Shown: piece after piece, positions 33,553-62,305 of the stretch
Position numbering within the stretch: the first letter of the stretch is position 1
How the letters are laid out: each line of letters opens with the position of its first letter
Translations under genes and position numbers: made by a program
Notes under the pieces: generated by a model
The model's input: only the letters and a program-made list of their open reading frames with translations
The model's database searches: none
Told to the model about the DNA's origin: nothing
Assembly (NCBI GenBank): GCA_018058545.1
Contig: JAGOZU010000009.1
Location: 1-62,305 of the forward strand
Length of the DNA: 62,305 nucleotides
Source: Promineifilum sp.
GTDB lineage: Bacteria > Chloroflexota > Anaerolineae > Promineifilales > Promineifilaceae
Direction: 5' to 3'

Positions 33553-34917
33553 TTATTTCGGCCGCCAGCGCTCGTAATCTTCCGGCTGGTCGATATCGTG
33601 AAGGATAGCGTTGTCCTCGAACTCGACATAATGAAGATCGCTTTCGTGACGCTGCAGCAATACGCGGGGCGCGGCTTCCGGCGGCAGAGACATTAGTTCG
33701 TCGAAATAGCGCCGGTCGATGAGCACGGGATTGCCGCGTTGCCCGTGATAGGTGGGGGCGATTAAACCATGCGTGCCTGCGGCATAGGCGCGTAACAGAG
33801 CATTGATCATCTCCGCGTCGACCATCGGCTGATCGCCCAGCACGACAAGCGCGGCTTCGACGGTTGGAGGTAAGTGGCGAACGGCCGTCTGAACAGACGT
33901 CAACATCCCATTCGCATAGTATTCATTCCGTATCGTTGGGATGTATAGATCGGCGGCGATCGCCTCCGTCTTCTCCTGCTCGTGCCCGGTGACGGCCAGC
34001 ACACTCGCTACCGACGACTCTTTTACATTGGCCAGAGTCCGGGCCAGCACGGTTGATTCGCGCCAGGGCAGGAGGAGCTTGTTGCGACCCATGCGGCTGG
34101 ACGTTCCCGCGGCCAGCACGACGGCCGCCACCCGTCGCCACACTTCCCGCACCGGCGACGTCTGCCGTAGCGCGCCCACCACGACCCGCGATACCCGTGA
34201 CTCAGCCATCATCAGTTCGGCCGCCTCTCGCCCCGCCGCCAGTCGTCCGACTGTCTCGGCCTTGTTGAGAAACGGGACGATTCGCGCCCCATCCGGCGCA
34301 TCCTTCAGTCCACCTTGCGGATGAACCAGCACCCGTGCCAGCCCCGCCGCCGTCAGCCGACCGTCGACCACCGACGACCGCTCTTCACTCGTCATTCGTA
34401 ATTCGTAATTCGTAATCGCCCTGATTTGTTCCGGCCGATGGGCGACTGCATCGATCGGTCCTTCCAGCGCGTCCAGCCCGACCATCGGCACGAGCAGCGT
34501 CGTCCCTGGCGGGATGGACGGCTCGTGGTCGGCGGGCGCCTTGATGGGCAGCATGCGCGAGCCGTCAGCCTCCACCAGAACGAAATCGACATCCGGCCGG
34601 GCCAGAAGGCAGGCGGGCAGCGCGGGATCGACGCCGATGGCCTTGTCTCCCTCGATACGACCGGCGACGAAACAAACCCTGTGGGTGGCCAGCGCTTCGT
34701 CAAGCGCCGCGAGGTCGCTCTCATAGACAACGGCCGGCGCGTGCTCCATCTGCCGGGCGAACAGGCGCGTGGTGGTGGTCATGACTACGCGCCCCGGCAA
34801 CTCGGCCGCGAGAGTGAACATCAGTCTGGTCTTGCCCCCGCCGCCCACGAAGGCCACCAGCTCCGGCCGTTCGCCGATGCCCAGCGCGGCGGGCAACGAC
34901 CACACCCCATCGATCAT
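33553..34917 (-). CDS. YqeC-MocA fusion: selenium-dependent Mo-hydroxylase accessory protein with molybdenum cofactor nucleotidyltransferase domain
   Basis: Residues 1-255 are YqeC-like: VAFVGGGGKTRLMFTLA with the P-loop GGGGKT (25-30), then VLVEADGSRMLPIKAPADHE and GARIVPFLNKAETV. Residues 262-454 are a MocA/MobA-type nucleotidyltransferase, with VLAAGTSSRMGRNKLLLPW (267-285) and LGDQPMVD (360-367), which attaches CMP or GMP to molybdopterin. Fusing both on one chain suggests linked cofactor handling. Residues 168-179 are encoded by a run of heptanucleotide repeats and look like an extra loop relative to the family. The ATG overlaps the upstream stop (ATGA). It is the last gene of the hydroxylase operon. 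Confidence 0.85.
   Translation of the reverse strand: MIDGVWSLPAALGIGERPELVAFVGGGGKTRLMFTLAAELPGRVVMTTTTRLFARQMEHAPAVVYESDLAALDEALATHRVCFVAGRIEGDKAIGVDPALPACLLARPDVDFVLVEADGSRMLPIKAPADHEPSIPPGTTLLVPMVGLDALEGPIDAVAHRPEQIRAITNYELRMTSEERSSVVDGRLTAAGLARVLVHPQGGLKDAPDGARIVPFLNKAETVGRLAAGREAAELMMAESRVSRVVVGALRQTSPVREVWRRVAAVVLAAGTSSRMGRNKLLLPWRESTVLARTLANVKESSVASVLAVTGHEQEKTEAIAADLYIPTIRNEYYANGMLTSVQTAVRHLPPTVEAALVVLGDQPMVDAEMINALLRAYAAGTHGLIAPTYHGQRGNPVLIDRRYFDELMSLPPEAAPRVLLQRHESDLHYVEFEDNAILHDIDQPEDYERWRPK
34382..34416 (-). repeat. Heptanucleotide tandem repeat inside the YqeC-MocA gene
   Basis: Plus-strand units TCTTCAC, TCGTCAT, TCGTAAT, TCGTAAT, TCGTAAT occupy 34382-34416. Read on the gene strand they are ATTACGA/ATGACGA-type heptamers. 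Since 7 is not a multiple of 3, each unit changes the frame. The five units are translated as residues 168-179. Confidence 0.9.
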
Positions 34918-35864
34918 GGAGTTGGAGTCAGCCCGAAGTTCGGCACGAATCGGCTCAGAAAGTCGTTGACCAATTGCTCGTAGGCCACCGGATCGGTGAC
35001 TATGTCGCGGGCGTGGGGTGAATCCCAGTCGGTCAGATCAAGTACCGTGCGGCTCTTGTCGGTGTTGGCGTAGATATCCTCGGAATGGGTGGGAACGGTG
35101 TATTCATCGGTCAACGAATGGATGAGCAGGACGGGAACCGTGATCTCGGCGATGGATCGTTCCGGCGCCACCGCGTCCACATCGAAATCAGCTCGCAGTT
35201 CAGCAATGCGCAATGCCGCCGGCAACACTAGCGGGGCGAGGGTGGGGAATTGCGCCCGGCCCTGGAAATCGACAATTTCTTCCAGTTCACTGTAGGGCGA
35301 ATCGGCGGCGACAAAGGCGATCTCCGGCGTCATGGGGGCCATCTGCAAGGCCGTGGACGCCCCATAGGACACGCCGAACACGCCGATTTGCGAGCGCTCC
35401 AGTCCGGAGCGGGCGGTGAACCAGTCCAGGGCGGCGATGGCGTCCCCTTTCTCGTAAAAGCCGTAGGTGTGGAGGGCATCCGTGCTGTCGCCGTGGCCGC
35501 GATGATCGTAGGCCAGTATGTCGCAGCCACGCTCCCAGAACATCGGCGCCCAGTTGAGCGCGTTATAGCGTGTGCCGTGAAAGCCGTGGAGGAACATCAG
35601 GCCGCAATCCGCGTCGGCCGGATTGTCGAAATACCAGCCGGACAGGGTGACGTCGCCTGATTGAATGGCGATGTCTTCCGGCTCCGGAAGGCCAAAGTCG
35701 GCCGGGGTCTCGCCGTCGGCCGCGGCTTCGGTCGCCGCGTCGGCCAGCGATTCCGTGGCGGTGGCGATGATGAGGCCGGAGAAATACCAGCCGGCGGCCA
35801 CATAGACCGCAGTGAACAGAACCGCGACGACAATCAGGGTGATCCACAATCGACGATGTTTCAT
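34914..35864 (-). CDS. Membrane-anchored alpha/beta hydrolase, copy 1
   Basis: The 316-residue protein has an N-terminal membrane anchor (about 6-26) and then an alpha/beta-hydrolase domain. It shows LMFLHGFHGTRYNALNWAP (oxyanion region), CDILAYDHRGHGDST, the nucleophile elbow GVFGVSYGAST, VLLIHSLTDEYTVP with the acid, and the His near DWDSPHARDI. It is a close paralogue of the next gene upstream (35897-36832), so this is a tandem duplication. It overlaps the YqeC-MocA start by 4 bp. Substrate is unknown; an esterase or peptidase on the outer face of the membrane is likely. Confidence 0.85.
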   Translation of the reverse strand: MKHRRLWITLIVVAVLFTAVYVAAGWYFSGLIIATATESLADAATEAAADGETPADFGLPEPEDIAIQSGDVTLSGWYFDNPADADCGLMFLHGFHGTRYNALNWAPMFWERGCDILAYDHRGHGDSTDALHTYGFYEKGDAIAALDWFTARSGLERSQIGVFGVSYGASTALQMAPMTPEIAFVAADSPYSELEEIVDFQGRAQFPTLAPLVLPAALRIAELRADFDVDAVAPERSIAEITVPVLLIHSLTDEYTVPTHSEDIYANTDKSRTVLDLTDWDSPHARDIVTDPVAYEQLVNDFLSRFVPNFGLTPTP

Positions 35865-35896
35865 GGTTGCTTCGTTATCAATCCAAAGTATTGTTT

Positions 35897-36832
35897 TTAG
35901 CCTGGCGGCAGGCCGAAGTCAGGTGCGTACTCGGTCATAAAGGCATCGAACAGCTGCTTATAGGCGGCGAAATCGGTACCGATGTCCCCCGCATGGGCCG
36001 AACCCCATTCGTTGATATGCACCACCGTGCGGCTCTGATCGCTGTTGGCGTAGATGGCTTCCGAGTGGGTGTAGGGGGTGAAATCGTCGGTGCGCGAATG
36101 AATGAGCAAGACGGGCATTTGCGCTTTGGCGATGTCCGTTTCTGGTGAGACAGCCGATGTGTCGAAACCGCCCCGCAACCCGGCTATGGCCAATACGCCG
36201 GGAACCATGAAGCGGCTGAGGAAGCTGCCTACCCGGACATTGGCCTGTGCTTCAATGATCCCCGCCAGACTGCGATAGGATGAGTCGGCCAGGATGAACG
36301 GCGCGTCGGGAATCATCGGCGCGAGTTGTAACGCAGTAGCGGCCCCAAACGACACCCCGGCCACGCCGATCTGCGATTCAGCCAACCCGCTGCGCTGCTG
36401 GAACCATCGGTAGGCGGTCAGAGCGTCACCTTTCTCGAAGTATCCGTAGGTGTAGAAAGCGGGAGTGCTGTCCCCGTGGCCACGATGATCGTAGGCCAGG
36501 ATGTCGCAGCCACGTTCCCAAAAGATGGGCGCCCAGTAAAGCGCCTGGTAGCGCGAACCAATAAAGCCATGCATGAACATGACGCCGCAATTGCCTTCGG
36601 CCGGATTGTCGAAATACCAGCCCGACAGAGTGATGTCGCCCGATTGAATGGTGATGTCTTCCGGCTCCGGCAAACCGAAGTCAGCCGGGGTACCGATTCT
36701 TGCCCGCTCCTCGGCCAGTGGCGGCGCGGGAGCGGCGATCATGACGTCGGCGAAATACCAGCATGCGGCGAGGTAGGCTACGGCCGGTAATGCAATGAGA
36801 ATAATGACGATCCACAGATTACGACGGCTCAT
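35897..36832 (-). CDS. Membrane-anchored alpha/beta hydrolase, copy 2
   Basis: The 311-residue paralogue has a transmembrane start (LWIVIILIALPAVAYLAACW), then PADFGLPEPEDITIQSGDIT shared nearly word for word with copy 1. It also has VMFMHGFIGSRYQALYWAP, GVAGVSFGAATAL (nucleophile Ser in GVSFGA), VLLIHSRTDDFTPYTHSEA and a C-terminal His region (EWGSAHAGD). Its ATG overlaps the yqeB-like stop (36829-36832), so it is translationally coupled to the Mo-enzyme maturation gene. Both hydrolases may process the hydroxylase substrate or product; this is inference from position. Confidence 0.85.
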   Translation of the reverse strand: MSRRNLWIVIILIALPAVAYLAACWYFADVMIAAPAPPLAEERARIGTPADFGLPEPEDITIQSGDITLSGWYFDNPAEGNCGVMFMHGFIGSRYQALYWAPIFWERGCDILAYDHRGHGDSTPAFYTYGYFEKGDALTAYRWFQQRSGLAESQIGVAGVSFGAATALQLAPMIPDAPFILADSSYRSLAGIIEAQANVRVGSFLSRFMVPGVLAIAGLRGGFDTSAVSPETDIAKAQMPVLLIHSRTDDFTPYTHSEAIYANSDQSRTVVHINEWGSAHAGDIGTDFAAYKQLFDAFMTEYAPDFGLPPG

Positions 36833-37659
36833 GGTTTATCTCCTTCGGATTTCGACAGATGAATTAGTACAGCTTCCAACACACCGCCACCGATGGCCAG
36901 TGCTTTTTCGGAGATAGTGAAGCAGGCGGCCACGTCGTCGCGCGGGTCGATGTCGCCGATCTTTAGGCCGACGGGAACGACCGTGCCGGGAGCGATGAGG
37001 CCGCGGACGACGCCGTCGAAAGGCGCAGCGATCTCATGCCCGGCCACGTCGCCCAGTATTTCTCCCTCGCGGACCCGGTCGCCGATATCGACGCGCCACC
37101 GGGCGATCCCATCTGCCGGCGCGCGCAGCACTCGCTCACGCCCCTTGCCGGCGACGATCCCTGGGGTGCCGGTGTTGGCTTCGGCCGTGCCGTGCCAAAT
37201 GACCCGGCTGAGGCGGTGGCCGCGGTTGGTCTCGACGACGGCGTGGCAATCGACCCCGGCCGTGAACCCCGGCCCCAGAGCGACGACAAGCGGGGCCTGA
37301 TCGATAGCAGTGTCGATGTTGCGCTTGGCCATGCGGGCATCGACGATTGACGAGTAACGAGTGACGAGTGACGAGTTCAGACGTTGTGCTATGTCGGGTG
37401 CGGCAAGGACGGGGATTAGGCCGGTTTGGGCCAGCGTCCACGCCTCATCCGGCGTTTCGACACGAACGGCGCGCAGGCTTTCGACGGTGATCTCCCCCTC
37501 CAGCACGGCCGTGGCCAGCGCCACCCGCCGCCGGACGACCAGCGGGTTGGGCAGTTCAGTGACGACCACCGGGAACCCGGCGTGATGCAGTCGCCAGGCA
37601 ACGCCGGTGGCGAGGTCGCCGCCGCCGCGGAGGAGGATGGGGTGATTGGGGAAGAGCAT
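36829..37659 (-). CDS. yqeB: YqeB (EF2563)-type selenium-dependent molybdenum hydroxylase maturation protein
   Basis: The 276-residue protein has the family N-terminus ILLRGGGDLATGVAWRLHHA (8-27), then IVDARMAKRNIDTAIDQAPL, VALGPGFTAGVDCHAVVETN and GHRLSRVIWHGTAEANTGTP. The distal part has a biotinyl/lipoyl-like VRGLIAPGTVVPVGLKIGDI segment. YqeB marks organisms with selenium-dependent molybdenum hydroxylases and acts with YqeC in enzyme maturation. Residues 95-107 (NSSLVTRYSSIVD region) are encoded by heptanucleotide repeats and appear inserted before the conserved VDARMAKRN. It starts 10 bp after the Mo-subunit stop. Confidence 0.87.
   Translation of the reverse strand: MLFPNHPILLRGGGDLATGVAWRLHHAGFPVVVTELPNPLVVRRRVALATAVLEGEITVESLRAVRVETPDEAWTLAQTGLIPVLAAPDIAQRLNSSLVTRYSSIVDARMAKRNIDTAIDQAPLVVALGPGFTAGVDCHAVVETNRGHRLSRVIWHGTAEANTGTPGIVAGKGRERVLRAPADGIARWRVDIGDRVREGEILGDVAGHEIAAPFDGVVRGLIAPGTVVPVGLKIGDIDPRDDVAACFTISEKALAIGGGVLEAVLIHLSKSEGDKP
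37341..37375 (+). repeat. Heptanucleotide tandem repeat inside the yqeB-like gene
   Basis: Plus-strand units CGACGAT, TGACGAG, TAACGAG, TGACGAG, TGACGAG occupy 37341-37375. They belong to the same TNACGAR family as the repeat at 34382-34416, but are in the opposite orientation relative to the reading frame. Confidence 0.9.
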
Positions 37660-37669
37660 AACAAATCGA

Positions 37670-39910
37670 TTATAATCGATCTCCTCTCAACCCCTCCACC
37701 ACCTTCCACGGCAACAGCGGAATCTCATCAAACCACACCCCCGTGGCGTCATGGAGGGCGGCGACGATGGCCGGGGCCAGCGGCATGAACGGCATTTCGG
37801 CCATGCCACGCGCCCCCCACGGCCCTTCGGGGTCGGGTATCTCCACCAGCACTGAATCGACTCGCGCCGGGATGTCGCGGATGCCGGGGATGAGATACTG
37901 GCTGAAGTAGGGGTTGACCACGCGGCCGTCGCGCACCACCAGGTTCTCCATCAGCGCGTAGCCGAACGCTTGCACCACCGCGCCTTCGACCTGTCCCTCG
38001 ACGTTGGTGCGATTGATGATCTTGCCCACGTCGTCGGCGCAGACCACGCGGTCGATGTGGATATGACCGGTCTCGATATCGACCGTCAGATCGACTGCCT
38101 CTGCCACGTAGCCATAGCTGAAGTTGGGCATGGTGTAGCCGGTCTCGGGGTCATAGGGCTGTGTTGGCGGCGGCCGATAGGTAGCGTGAGCGATGGCCGG
38201 GCGATCCTCATCGGTCCATTGGGCCAGCGCCTGTTCGGCCGCCATGCGGATAGAGTTGCCGGCCATGAAGGTCATACGCGAAGCCGACACCGATCCGGAG
38301 TCGCCGCTGGTAGAGGTGTCCGAGAGGTCCAGCTCGACCATCTCGACGGGCACGCCGACGGCCGCGGCCGCCATTTGCTTGAAAGCCGTGTGTGACCCCT
38401 GGCCGACCTCGGCCCCGGCGTGGCGCAGAACGACTCGCTCGATCGTCTTGCCGCCGTGAAGTTCGATGATGGCATCGCATTTCTCGGGTGCGCCAAAGGA
38501 GAAGCCGACGTTCTTAAAGGCACAGGCGAAACCGCGCCCGCGCCGCAGGTTGCCGGAGCTGGCCGGCAAGGTTTGGAAGAGCGACAGTCCCGGATAGATT
38601 CCCTCATCGTCATACGGCTCGTGCCAGCCGGCGGCATCTGCGCAAATCTCCACCACCTCGGCCATGCTGACGCCGGGTACGATGGGGGTTTGGGTCGTCA
38701 GCAAGCTGCCCTCGCGCAGCACGTTCTTCAGGCGTAACGCCACCGGATCCATGCCCAGAGCTTCAGCCAGCTTGTTCATCTGGCATTCGGCCGCGAAGGC
38801 TCCCTGTGGCCCGCCGAAGCCGCGAAACGCCCCGCCGGGGATGTTGTTGGTGGTCACGGCGTAGCTGTCCACATGGGCGTTGGGGATTTCATAAGGCCCG
38901 GTGACCATCAGATGGGCGTTGCCCAGCACCTTGGGGCTGGTGTAGGTATAGGATCCGCTATCGAGGATGAGCTCGGCTTCAACGGCCGTTATCTTGCCGT
39001 CTCGTTTGGCTCCCCACTTCGACTTGACCCACGCCGGATGGCGTTTGTGGTGGCCGCGGATGCTTTCGTCACGCGACCAGATGATGCGCACAGGCCGGTT
39101 GATGCCTTGCTCGTGCAGGCGCATGGCCGCCAGTCCCAGGACGATCTGCAGGGACATATCCTCGCGGCCGCCGAACGCCCCACCGATGGCCGGGTAGATG
39201 ATGCGCACCTTGTCGACCGGCAACTTGAGCGAGCGAGCCACTTCTTCCTGATCCTTGTGTGCCCATTGGCCGGCGATTTGCACCGTTACGCGGCCTTCCT
39301 TGTCGATAAATCCCACACCCGCCTCCGGTTGCAGGTAGGCGTGTTCCTGATAGGGCAGGTAGTATTGGCCTTCGATGACGACATCGGCCGCGGCCCACCC
39401 GGCAGCCATGTCCCCCTTGCGAATCTGGTAATGCTTCAGGATGTTGCTGCCATGCCAGGGATGCAGGATGTATTCGTCCTTCATCGCCTCATGCACGTCG
39501 GTGACTATCGGCAGCTGCTCCCATTCGATGGCGATCAGACCGCAGGCGCGGGCGGCGATGGCTTCCGTCTCGGCCACGACGACGGCCACATGGTCGCCCT
39601 CCCACAGGCTCACGTCGGCGTTCGGGTTGCTGCCGCCCAGCCCGACCAGCACCGGCTGATCCGGCGTGCCCAGGCCATAGCCGTTGAAGGGCACATCCCT
39701 GGCCGTCAGCACGCAGACGACGCCGGGCAGGGCTTCGGCCGCGGCGGTGTCCATGGAGATCATGCGGGCGTGGGGTTGGCCGCTGAACAGGACGCGGCCG
39801 TATAGCAAATTCGGCGGGGTGATATCGCCGGAGTAGAGGGCCTCGCCGGTTACTTTATCGCGGACATCGATGCGCTCGGTCACGCGCGAGCGAAGAATTG
39901 GATCAATCAT
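37670..39910 (-). CDS. Xanthine dehydrogenase family molybdopterin-binding subunit
   Basis: The 746-residue large subunit binds the Mo-pterin cofactor and substrate. It begins with [20 protein letters not shown]. Cofactor contacts include [11 protein letters not shown] (241-251) and [15 protein letters not shown] (361-375), then [20 protein letters not shown]. The probable catalytic Glu is in [14 protein letters not shown] near the end. It lacks the Cys/Gln-X-Cys-X-X-Arg loop pattern of classical CO dehydrogenases that I would recognise. The ATG at 39908-39910 overlaps the upstream FAD/FeS gene by 8 bp. The reaction (hydroxylation of a purine, aldehyde or other heterocycle) is not decided. 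Confidence 0.92.
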
Positions 39911-41360
39911 GGTTGGCTCCCTGACTTGCCTCGGCCGCCACATGGACGGCCTCGATGATCTTGTAGTATCCGGTGCAGCGACACAAATTGCCTGAGAACG
40001 CCTGCTCGATATGTATTTGGTCCGGCGCGGGCTGCTCCTCCAGCAGCTTGGCCCCCGACATGAGGAAGCCGGGGATGCAATAGCCACACTGGACGGCTCC
40101 GGTCTGAATGAAGGCGCTCTGGATTGGATGGAGCGAGCCGTTTGAGGCCAGACCCTCGACCGTGACGATCTCCGCTCCGTGGGCGCGTGCCGCCGGAACC
40201 AGACAAGCCATCACCGCCATCCCGTCGAGATAGACGGTGCAGGCGCCGCACTCTCCCTCGGCGCAACCTTCCTTGGTGCCGGTTAGCTGCCCTTCCTCAC
40301 GCAGCCAGCGCAGCAATGTCTTTTGCATGCCCGGCGCGCTGACAACTTGGCCGTTGACGGTGGCCTCGATCGGTGTGTCCGCATCGAATGCAGCCGCGTA
40401 GTCGGGGCCGGTGGGGAATACGCCGCCGGTCTCGCCCCAGAGCATGACCGGCTGGTATGCCCAGTTCTCACGCTCGCGGCCGTCTCGCAAGGCCAGCAAC
40501 GCGCGACGGGCCATCACCTCGATCATCTCCGACCGGTAGGATGCCGGACCACGCACGTCATCGATGGGGTGCGCGGCCGAAGCCACCAGCCCGGCGGCGA
40601 CGATGATCTCGTCGTCGGTCAACGCCTTGCCGGCCAGATAGGACTCGGCCGATTCGGCATCGATGATCGTTGGCGCGACGCTGCCCAGCGATATCCGCGC
40701 GCGGTTCACGGTACGATCGGCGGCGAAATCGATAATCATCGTCAGATGGGCGACGGAGATAGCTTGCGCCCGACGCAGCCCCAGCTTGACGAAGATGCCC
40801 CGGGCCGACTCCGCCATTGGCGCAAAGACGATTTCGACCAGCATCTCGTCCGGTTCCATGACCGAGCGTCGCACGCCGGTGTAAAAATCCTTCAAGTCCA
40901 CCATGCGCCAGCCGCGCGTCGAGGCTAAAATCACCTGTGCGTCCAGCCCTCGCAGCGCGGAGATGGTGTCGTTGGCCGGGCTGGCGGTGATAAGATTCCC
41001 GGCGACCGTCCCTCGATTGCGAAGTTGTGGCGAGGCGACCTCCGCGCAAGCCTGGGCAAGCGGAAAGCCGTGGGTGAGGATCAGTTTGGAGGCCACGACC
41101 TGATTGTGGGTGACCAGCGCTCCGATGTGGATGAGGCCGTCGGCGTCCCGGGTGATCTCGTTCAGGCCGGGGATGCGGGTGACGTCGATGAGTGTGTGAA
41201 CACCCGGGCGCTGCCCGCGCTCGATCTCCAGCAGCAGATCGCTACCGCCGGCGATCAGGCGGGCTGAGCGGCCGTACTTCTCCAGCAGAGCCAGCGTCGA
41301 CGGCAGATCCGCCGGGATTTCATATCGTTCGAGTAAATGGGAAAATTGGTGGGCTAACAT
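39903..41360 (-). CDS. Fused FAD-binding and [2Fe-2S] subunit of a molybdenum hydroxylase
   Basis: One 485-residue chain joins the medium FAD subunit (1-290) and the small iron-sulfur subunit (330-485). The FAD part has [15 protein letters not shown] (36-50) and [20 protein letters not shown] (112-131). The iron-sulfur part has ferredoxin cysteines 366, 371, 374 and 386 ([12 protein letters not shown]) and the second cluster set 425, 428, 460 and 462 (QCGYC, LCRCTG). The usual arrangement is separate genes or an FeS-FAD-Mo order; here FAD precedes FeS. Electrons from the Mo site would pass through both clusters to FAD. It sits 7 bp after the XdhC gene. Confidence 0.93.
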
Positions 41361-62059: not shown

Positions 62060-62305
62060 CTATCGTCCTCCCCCGTCAGGGGGTGGCGTCGTCGGTGGCT
62101 CGGCCGTCGGCGGTTCAGACGTCGGCGGTGGATCCGTCGGCGGTGGATCCGTCGGCGGTGGCGACGTGGGTGGTGGCGACGTGGGCGGTGGCGACGTGGG
62201 CGGTGGCGACGTGGGCGGTGGCGACGTCGGTGGTGGTGATGTGGGCGGCGGTGACGTCGGCGGTGGCGATGTAGGTGGTGGCGATGTAGGCGGCGGCGAT
62301 GTCGG
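62060..62305 (-). CDS. C-terminal part of a repeat-rich protein (PPPTS pentapeptide tail), cut by the window edge
   Basis: The minus strand is open from the right edge to a TAG at 62060-62062, giving 81 residues of C-terminus. About 13 tandem copies of a proline-rich pentapeptide (PPPTS, with PPPTD and PPPTA variants) run from the edge. They are followed by TSEPPTAEPPTTPPPDGGGR before the stop. Such Pro/Thr/Ser tails are usual for secreted or cell-surface proteins. The N-terminal domain and name are outside the window. The gene ends 13 bp upstream of the rfbH promoter -35. Confidence 0.75.
   Translation of the reverse strand, partial: PTSPPPTSPPPTSPPPTSPPPTSPPPTSPPPTSPPPTSPPPTSPPPTSPPPTDPPPTDPPPTSEPPTAEPPTTPPPDGGGR
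62116..62305 (-). repeat. 15-bp tandem repeat coding for PPPTS units
   Basis: A 15-bp unit (plus-strand form GCGACGTGGGCGGTG) is repeated about 12.7 times from 62116 to the window end, with synonymous variation toward the edge. Three consecutive units at 62176-62220 are identical, suggesting recent expansion. Confidence 0.95.

Follow-up and report, generated by a model that had tools for sequence, protein, structure and literature searches.

In many bacteria, the long simple repeats met most often are reported to be heptanucleotides (Mrazek 2007, cited from PMC4679880 and PMC4692102), and TAACTGA heptamers form direct repeats in Beggiatoaceae, Cyanobacteria and Bacteroidetes (PMC4679880). We describe here a heptamer of consensus TNACGAR in a stretch of 62,305 nucleotides from Promineifilum sp., a member of the Chloroflexota (GenBank assembly GCA_018058545.1, contig JAGOZU010000009.1, positions 1 to 62,305), which we call the window. 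Two of its arrays lie inside the genes of two molybdenum cofactor maturation proteins, YqeC-MocA and YqeB, and are predicted to be translated there. They are probably copies of a dispersed repeat, a Chloroflexota variant resembling the long simple sequence repeats and the short tandemly repeated repetitive (STRR) sequences, and would be kept in frame as tolerated disordered loops.

The TAACTGA repeats share with the TNACGAR arrays a 7-nt unit, many arrays per genome, a position mostly beside gene ends and a presence in open reading frames (ORFs) that is limited by stop codons. The stops set which orientation of TAACTGA fits an ORF, a similar argument having been made for Beggiatoaceae, and one copy encodes a surface-loop segment of the RNA polymerase beta' protein (PMC4679880). 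On the other hand, the unit and the phylum differ, most TAACTGA repeats lie just upstream of start codons, and their ORF copies are few and found mainly at protein ends (PMC4679880), whereas 21 of the 55 TNACGAR arrays that we mapped are genic and many of these are internal. The TNACGAR arrays differ furthermore from the TAACTGA repeats of PMC4679880 by a polar tail and by the reoccupation of the same loop by unrelated heptamers across genera. The GGGAATC repeats of Xanthomonas, the GGGGAYT repeats of Nostoc and the Calothrix heptanucleotides are likewise lineage-specific, present on both strands and mostly intergenic near ORF ends; the GGGAATC and GGGGAYT repeats are G-rich and quadruplex-forming (PMC4692102), whereas TNACGAR is devoid of G runs. 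The Rickettsia palindromic elements (RPEs) are also short repeated DNA lying in frame in unrelated genes and generating a recurring peptide, but they are palindromes of about 150 bp (PMC10969869), whereas the heptad arrays studied here measure 28-42 nt and are usually unpaired in the source genome. The tandem repeats of Borgs likewise form disordered segments in ORFs, have intergenic copies and turn over between relatives; their ORF units are perfect and divisible by three (PMC9879509), which sets them apart from the imperfect 7-nt units of the present arrays.

Repeats of heptamers, the limits that stops set to their presence in ORFs and the surface-loop case (PMC4679880; PMC4692102) are thus already known, as are in-frame Rickettsia palindromes (PMC10969869) and Borg repeats that code for disordered segments (PMC9879509); what is new here is that unrelated heptamers have come to occupy the same loops anew, and that the arrays are polar and in some cases paired. 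Our literature searches returned no report of such repeats in Chloroflexota, nor of one loop reoccupied by unrelated heptamers, and a search with peptide strings of the translated repeat brought up one unrelated Plasmodium paper only. Two enzyme loops serve here as recorders: across one family they register how one heptamer replaces another at a given position, the array-free relatives providing the outgroups, and origin, direction and frame constraints become testable by comparative genomics. They also indicate that noise repeats can turn into protein sequence even when their unit is not a multiple of three.

Arrays in yqeC-mocA and yqeB and their copies elsewhere

The first array (34381..34416, minus strand) has the orientation of its host gene (33553..34917, minus strand), which encodes a fusion of YqeC with a MocA-type molybdenum cofactor cytidylyltransferase, and it codes for residues 168-179 (ITNYELRMTSEE). 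Its minus-strand units are TTACGAA, three times, then TGACGAG and TGAAGAG, that is, four perfect TNACGAR units and one with a single mismatch, the latter being a tail that is also found at many other copies. The second array (37341..37376, plus strand) is antisense to yqeB (36829..37659, minus strand), the gene of a selenium-dependent molybdenum cofactor biosynthesis protein, where it corresponds to residues 95-107 (NSSLVTRYSSIVD); on the plus strand a first unit with two mismatches, CGACGAT, is followed by four perfect ones, TGACGAG, TAACGAG, TGACGAG and TGACGAG. Both arrays are in frame within their host gene, and Tandem Repeats Finder assigns period 7 to both. A three-unit TNACGAR pattern with at most two mismatches has 6 matches in the window versus 0 in 100 dinucleotide shuffles. 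The coordinates, the unit listing and the shuffles thus confirm the first-pass annotation, which had reported arrays in these two genes in opposite orientation relative to the frame. It had also considered the loops as extra compared with the family, which holds for MocA, whose loop exceeds the shortest common form by 33 nt, and less so for YqeB, where the excess is just 12-18 nt; the YqeB array therefore replaces native loop sequence besides lengthening it.

The three-unit pattern gives 190 overlapping matches in the source genome (G000, an assembly of 3.6 Mb in 185 contigs) and none with a reversed-pattern control. The scanning of 36 genome stretches and the window led to the mapping of at least 55 arrays, each of three or more perfect units, which occur on both strands, range from 3 to 20 units and are in many cases solo. 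They comprise 27 intergenic arrays, 7 that run across a gene end and 21 inside genes; 34 of the 55 are consequently intergenic or overlap a gene end, though non-coding DNA makes up only 13% of what was sampled. The 21 genic arrays (18 sense, 3 antisense) lie in 13 genes, and genes are the better count, six of these arrays being one repeated 42-bp unit of a radical SAM protein and four belonging to one membrane protein. Elsewhere in the genus, TNACGAR matches number 87+110 in G001, 120+112 in G004 and 56+68 in G005, and the pattern is found in 18 of 59 genomes, most strongly within the genus. An excess of 7-nt tandems, a dispersed, lineage-restricted unit and a location mainly outside genes, the marks of heptameric long simple sequence repeats and STRR sequences, are all observed here. 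The earlier suggestion, that dispersed short repeats were domesticated into coding sequence, is upheld by the genome search as regards dispersal, genic copies and the existence of array-free homologues; the word domesticated exceeds the data, and tolerated in permissive loops fits better. The reversed-pattern control does have matches in G003 (23) and G019 (84), which are RAGCANT-type heptamer arrays of these genomes' own.

Coding copies and the choice of strand

Beyond the two window genes, all 11 host proteins match Pfam families, among them PheT, a heavy-metal P-type ATPase, HypD, DUF2298 proteins, a type ISP restriction enzyme and a methyltransferase. The array peptides are near-identical from one host to the other, such as ITNYELRMTNEE, and approach ITNYELR(I/M)TNEE when the array is read in sense and SLVTRHSSLVT when it is read in antisense. 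Each of the seven unit variants tested leaves a single strand open and, 7 and 3 being coprime, this strand can be read through in every one of its three frames. For TTACGAR and TCACGAA it is the sense strand, for TGACGAR and TAACGAR the antisense strand. The MocA array accordingly presents TTACGAA in the sense direction, with the TGA of its two final units in a harmless phase, and the TGACGAG and TAACGAG units of the YqeB array are read in antisense. The opposite orientation of the two arrays thus results from stop codons closing one strand per unit type; it is a stop-codon consequence and not a regulatory feature. None of the 21 arrays in genes reaches 49 nt, versus 13 of the 34 outside (Fisher p 0.0008).

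In one DUF2298 protein of the source genome, a sense arm and an antisense arm with a spacer between them account for 35 residues that are absent from its G019 orthologue. In the radical SAM protein (L085, 203-447), six tandem 42-bp units, each a full array with its TGAAGAG tail, follow one another in frame. The array peptide of the heavy-metal P-type ATPase (L076, residues 520-531) comes shortly after the DKTGT motif, which has a role in phosphorylation. A separate PVAVAQ-type peptide repeat occurs at about residues 1130-1185 of the 1801-residue protein L080, near the heptamer pair of the G019 orthologue.

Loop occupation, reading frame and structure

MocA and YqeB proteins were searched in 40 related genomes and 11 further family members, and 31 MocA and 35 YqeB sequences were aligned; partial and single-domain matches (the split G007 and G026 YqeB pieces, for example) and three weak, distant MocA matches with one TGA (G047, G040 and G036) were omitted. 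Period-7 segments with a score of at least 11 number 16 in the MocA set and 17 in the YqeB set, 33 in total, when seven control periods summed together give 2 and 1, respectively. They cluster at MocA residues 167-188 and in the linker 235-244, and at YqeB residues 88-107 and 187-195. Outside the genus, the best segment of period 7 falls in the loop in 7 of 25 MocA (1.2 expected) and 7 of 29 YqeB sequences (2.0 expected), a count weaker than that of the whole genes because MocA 235-244 and YqeB 187-195 also attract heptamers.

Within the genus, the units at YqeB 88-107 are ACGAGTG (G000, G004), ACAGACC (G005), ACGACGG (G001) and ACCGCCG (G007), and they differ between genera too. Most loop units have 2-3 mismatches to TNACGAR, as 88% of all 7-mers have, a few being one mismatch away; most are therefore unrelated to it. 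In all ten YqeB outgroups of order or class level the loop measures 39 nt, and none of them has a period-7 segment with a score of at least 11. At MocA 167-188, TNACGAR or a one-mismatch form is found in G000, G005, G001 and G007 and a decayed sequence in G004 and G006, so that this array is probably older than the split of these species. As judged from the aligned genes, the same two loops have been colonised repeatedly by unrelated heptamers, and they resemble sites where short repeats land more than they resemble switches of the frame.

The second YqeB cluster deserves a separate description. In seven other genera (L128, L125, L242, L243, L124 and others), a heptamer repeat of the GATTGGA type encodes the conserved WR(L)(E)IGD motif at residues 187-195; the motif also exists without the repeat, so that its codons may have been overwritten by the repeat or may themselves give rise to repeats.

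Where do the loop units come from? A sample of G019 contains 27 arrays of period 7 and 0-3 at the other periods from 4 to 12, and these arrays include units resembling the ones that occupy the MocA and YqeB loops of G019 itself. TTCACAA, the unit of the G032 YqeB loop, has 17 matches in G032, of which the loop itself accounts for 4; it is present in 12 of 30 genomes and has 0 matches in the five members of the window's genus that were searched. Each lineage thus seems to draw on its own heptamer stock for these loops. The sharp excess at period 7, together with the prevalence of heptanucleotides and the polymerase-footprint idea attached to it (Mrazek 2007 via PMC4679880 and PMC4692102), would also agree with each array having been born locally by replication slippage of a chance seed, without any dispersal. 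We regard this as quite unlikely, as dozens of separate origins in one genome would not arrive at a single consensus with a common tail, and as the loop unit of a species can be one of the dispersed units of its own genome.

The first-pass annotation had further proposed that the arrays could be frame-switching sites, recalling that whole-unit changes keep the frame only at net multiples of three units. The arithmetic is right. In the relatives, loop lengths do differ by multiples of three, although not always of 21: the MocA differences within the genus are 0, 15 and 21 nt. A change of one or two units would shift the frame, ending MocA at residue 173-180 and YqeB at residue 170-237, as required if the arrays were contingency loci whose gain or loss of units switches both maturation enzymes on and off. 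Yet all aligned loop lengths are multiples of three and the aligned homologues are intact: among the 31 MocA and 35 YqeB sequences, stops were found only at the ends of two YqeB matches, and none of these sequences loses the frame within the body of the gene. Both window arrays are, moreover, short and imperfect, and the repeat also occurs in PheT, for which an OFF state would presumably be lethal. Loop lengths, the lack of a broken homologue among the aligned sequences and the truncation of both enzymes by a one-unit change thus leave frame switching unsupported, and we consider contingency loci very improbable.

In the AlphaFold model of YqeC-MocA, which has a mean predicted local distance difference test score (pLDDT) of 92.3, the only internal stretch under 50 is 173-177, within the array peptide. 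In that of YqeB (mean pLDDT 88.7), the lowest internal block is 91-100 (mean 58) and spans the first half of the array peptide, covering array residues 95-100 only. These models are consistent with array peptides that would be tolerated disordered passengers. A fold search with the YqeB model gave low TM-scores only and was not used.

Layout of the arrays, mode of spread and gene neighbourhood

The arrays are polar. AAGAG occurs within 12 nt after the array in 19 of the 55 and before it in 7, several of these in the 42-bp tandem, and its complement follows none; GGAA directly precedes the array in 12 of the 55, and the mirror of GGAA follows none. As raw counts without random expectation, the 5' end lies at most 30 bp from a gene end in 25 of the 34 arrays outside genes, and the 3' end in 15. 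In the source genome, the gene end within 30 bp on the 5' side is a start codon for 15 of these 34 and a stop codon for 10. Manual reading furthermore reveals head-to-head arrays in 14 of the 16 listed array-bearing intergenic regions of G001, 10 of the pairs having arms of the same family and 4 mixed arms; such pairs are frequent in G001 and few in the source genome, and each of the two window copies consists of one arm only.

Most of the G001 pairs with arms of one family form strong folds (z about -3 to -11), and many arrays start at or just past a stop codon and point into the gap, two observations that would agree with intergenic arrays being RNA hairpins selected as terminators or 3'-end stabilisers, the coding copies being by-products. 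Solo arrays and mixed-arm pairs, however, fold no more than usual, and the arrays of the source genome abut start codons as often as stops; we judge this explanation unlikely. The overall folding excess of array regions is indeed modest, a z under -4 being reached in 8 of 15 array regions of G001 versus 19 of 60 array-free ones, and in 0 of 4 array regions of the source genome. A hairpin role for all arrays was dropped on these figures, the mixed-arm pairs being without excess and array-free gaps folding too.

The head-to-head pairs, their folding and the polar tail could also be those of a mobile palindrome similar to the miniature inverted-repeat transposable elements (MITEs), the repetitive extragenic palindromic (REP) sequences or the RPEs. 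Such an element would consist of facing heptamer arms around a GAAGAG-containing centre and be mobilised by a transposase in trans, solo arrays being half elements and coding copies being in-frame insertions, as in RPEs. In-frame insertion with a recurring peptide, characteristic of RPEs and MITEs, is indeed what the TNACGAR arrays display, and complete in-frame pairs exist in L080 (residues 426-456) and in the G007 YqeB loop. To our knowledge, RPEs have no 7-nt periodicity. Y1 transposase-like matches are present in 12 of 13 genomes; but those of the source genome are only two and partial, and G004, which has 232 repeat matches, has no Y1_Tnp match, although with a genome 98% complete this lack is not a certain one. 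The many solo arrays, the four G001 pairs whose arms belong to different families and fold unremarkably, and the weak folding excess overall are further arguments against a mobile palindrome, which we hold to be rather doubtful. Mobilisation of the REP type by REP-associated tyrosine transposases (RAYTs) is not supported, G004 being rich in the repeat and without a Y1_Tnp match.

The explanation that we favour, dispersed heptamer copies tolerated in permissive loops, can be formulated as follows. Arrays would arrive at many sites of the genome and would survive in a gene only where unit and orientation are free of stops, where the net change in length is a multiple of three, and where the site is a surface loop, so that the array would become a disordered peptide without evident function. 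Slippage would make them longer, and recombination or template switching through short homology would carry them to new sites, without a dedicated transposase; slippage combined with short-homology copying is the mode of spread that we prefer. Several points weigh against this explanation. The 190 matches of the source genome are overlapping windows and not arrays, the 55 mapped arrays are a lower bound from which starts with a preceding unit differing at its C were left out, and the gene positions come from a home-made gene caller. The G019 DUF2298 protein is the only clean array-free orthologue found outside the two window genes, and it is distant; YqeB residues 101-110 are predicted well. 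Finally, the polar tail, the abutment on gene ends and the head-to-head pairs are unexplained by chance arrival and selection alone, and hint at a defined element.

A broader proposal, which we put forward tentatively, is that, in this family of Chloroflexota, heptad-repeat elements with inward-facing arms and a GAAGAG centre constitute a continuing, transposase-free source of new protein segments. The current heptamer of each genome would repeatedly overwrite the same permissive loops, homologous enzymes would thus hold unrelated peptides at one position, and any heptamer that is stop-free on one strand would give the same seven-residue peptide in all three frames of this strand.

As for the host proteins, YqeC-MocA consists of a YqeC domain (residues 21-236; TIGR03172, 157 bits, cut-off 73) and a MocA-type domain (residues 265-451; TIGR03310, 182.5 bits, slightly below the cut-off of 186.45), and YqeB matches TIGR03309 with 324.9 bits (cut-off 220). 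The nearest named relatives of the MocA protein come from Chloroflexota metagenome assemblies, with 52-54% identity. Next to yqeB, the minus strand encodes the molybdopterin-binding subunit of a xanthine-dehydrogenase-type enzyme (37670..40087) and the FAD-binding and 2Fe-2S subunit of the same enzyme (39903..41360). Two similar alpha/beta hydrolase genes (34914-35864 and 35897-36832) lie between yqeB and yqeC-mocA, and a 15-bp tandem repeat of about 15 copies (62082-62305) extends up to the end of the window.

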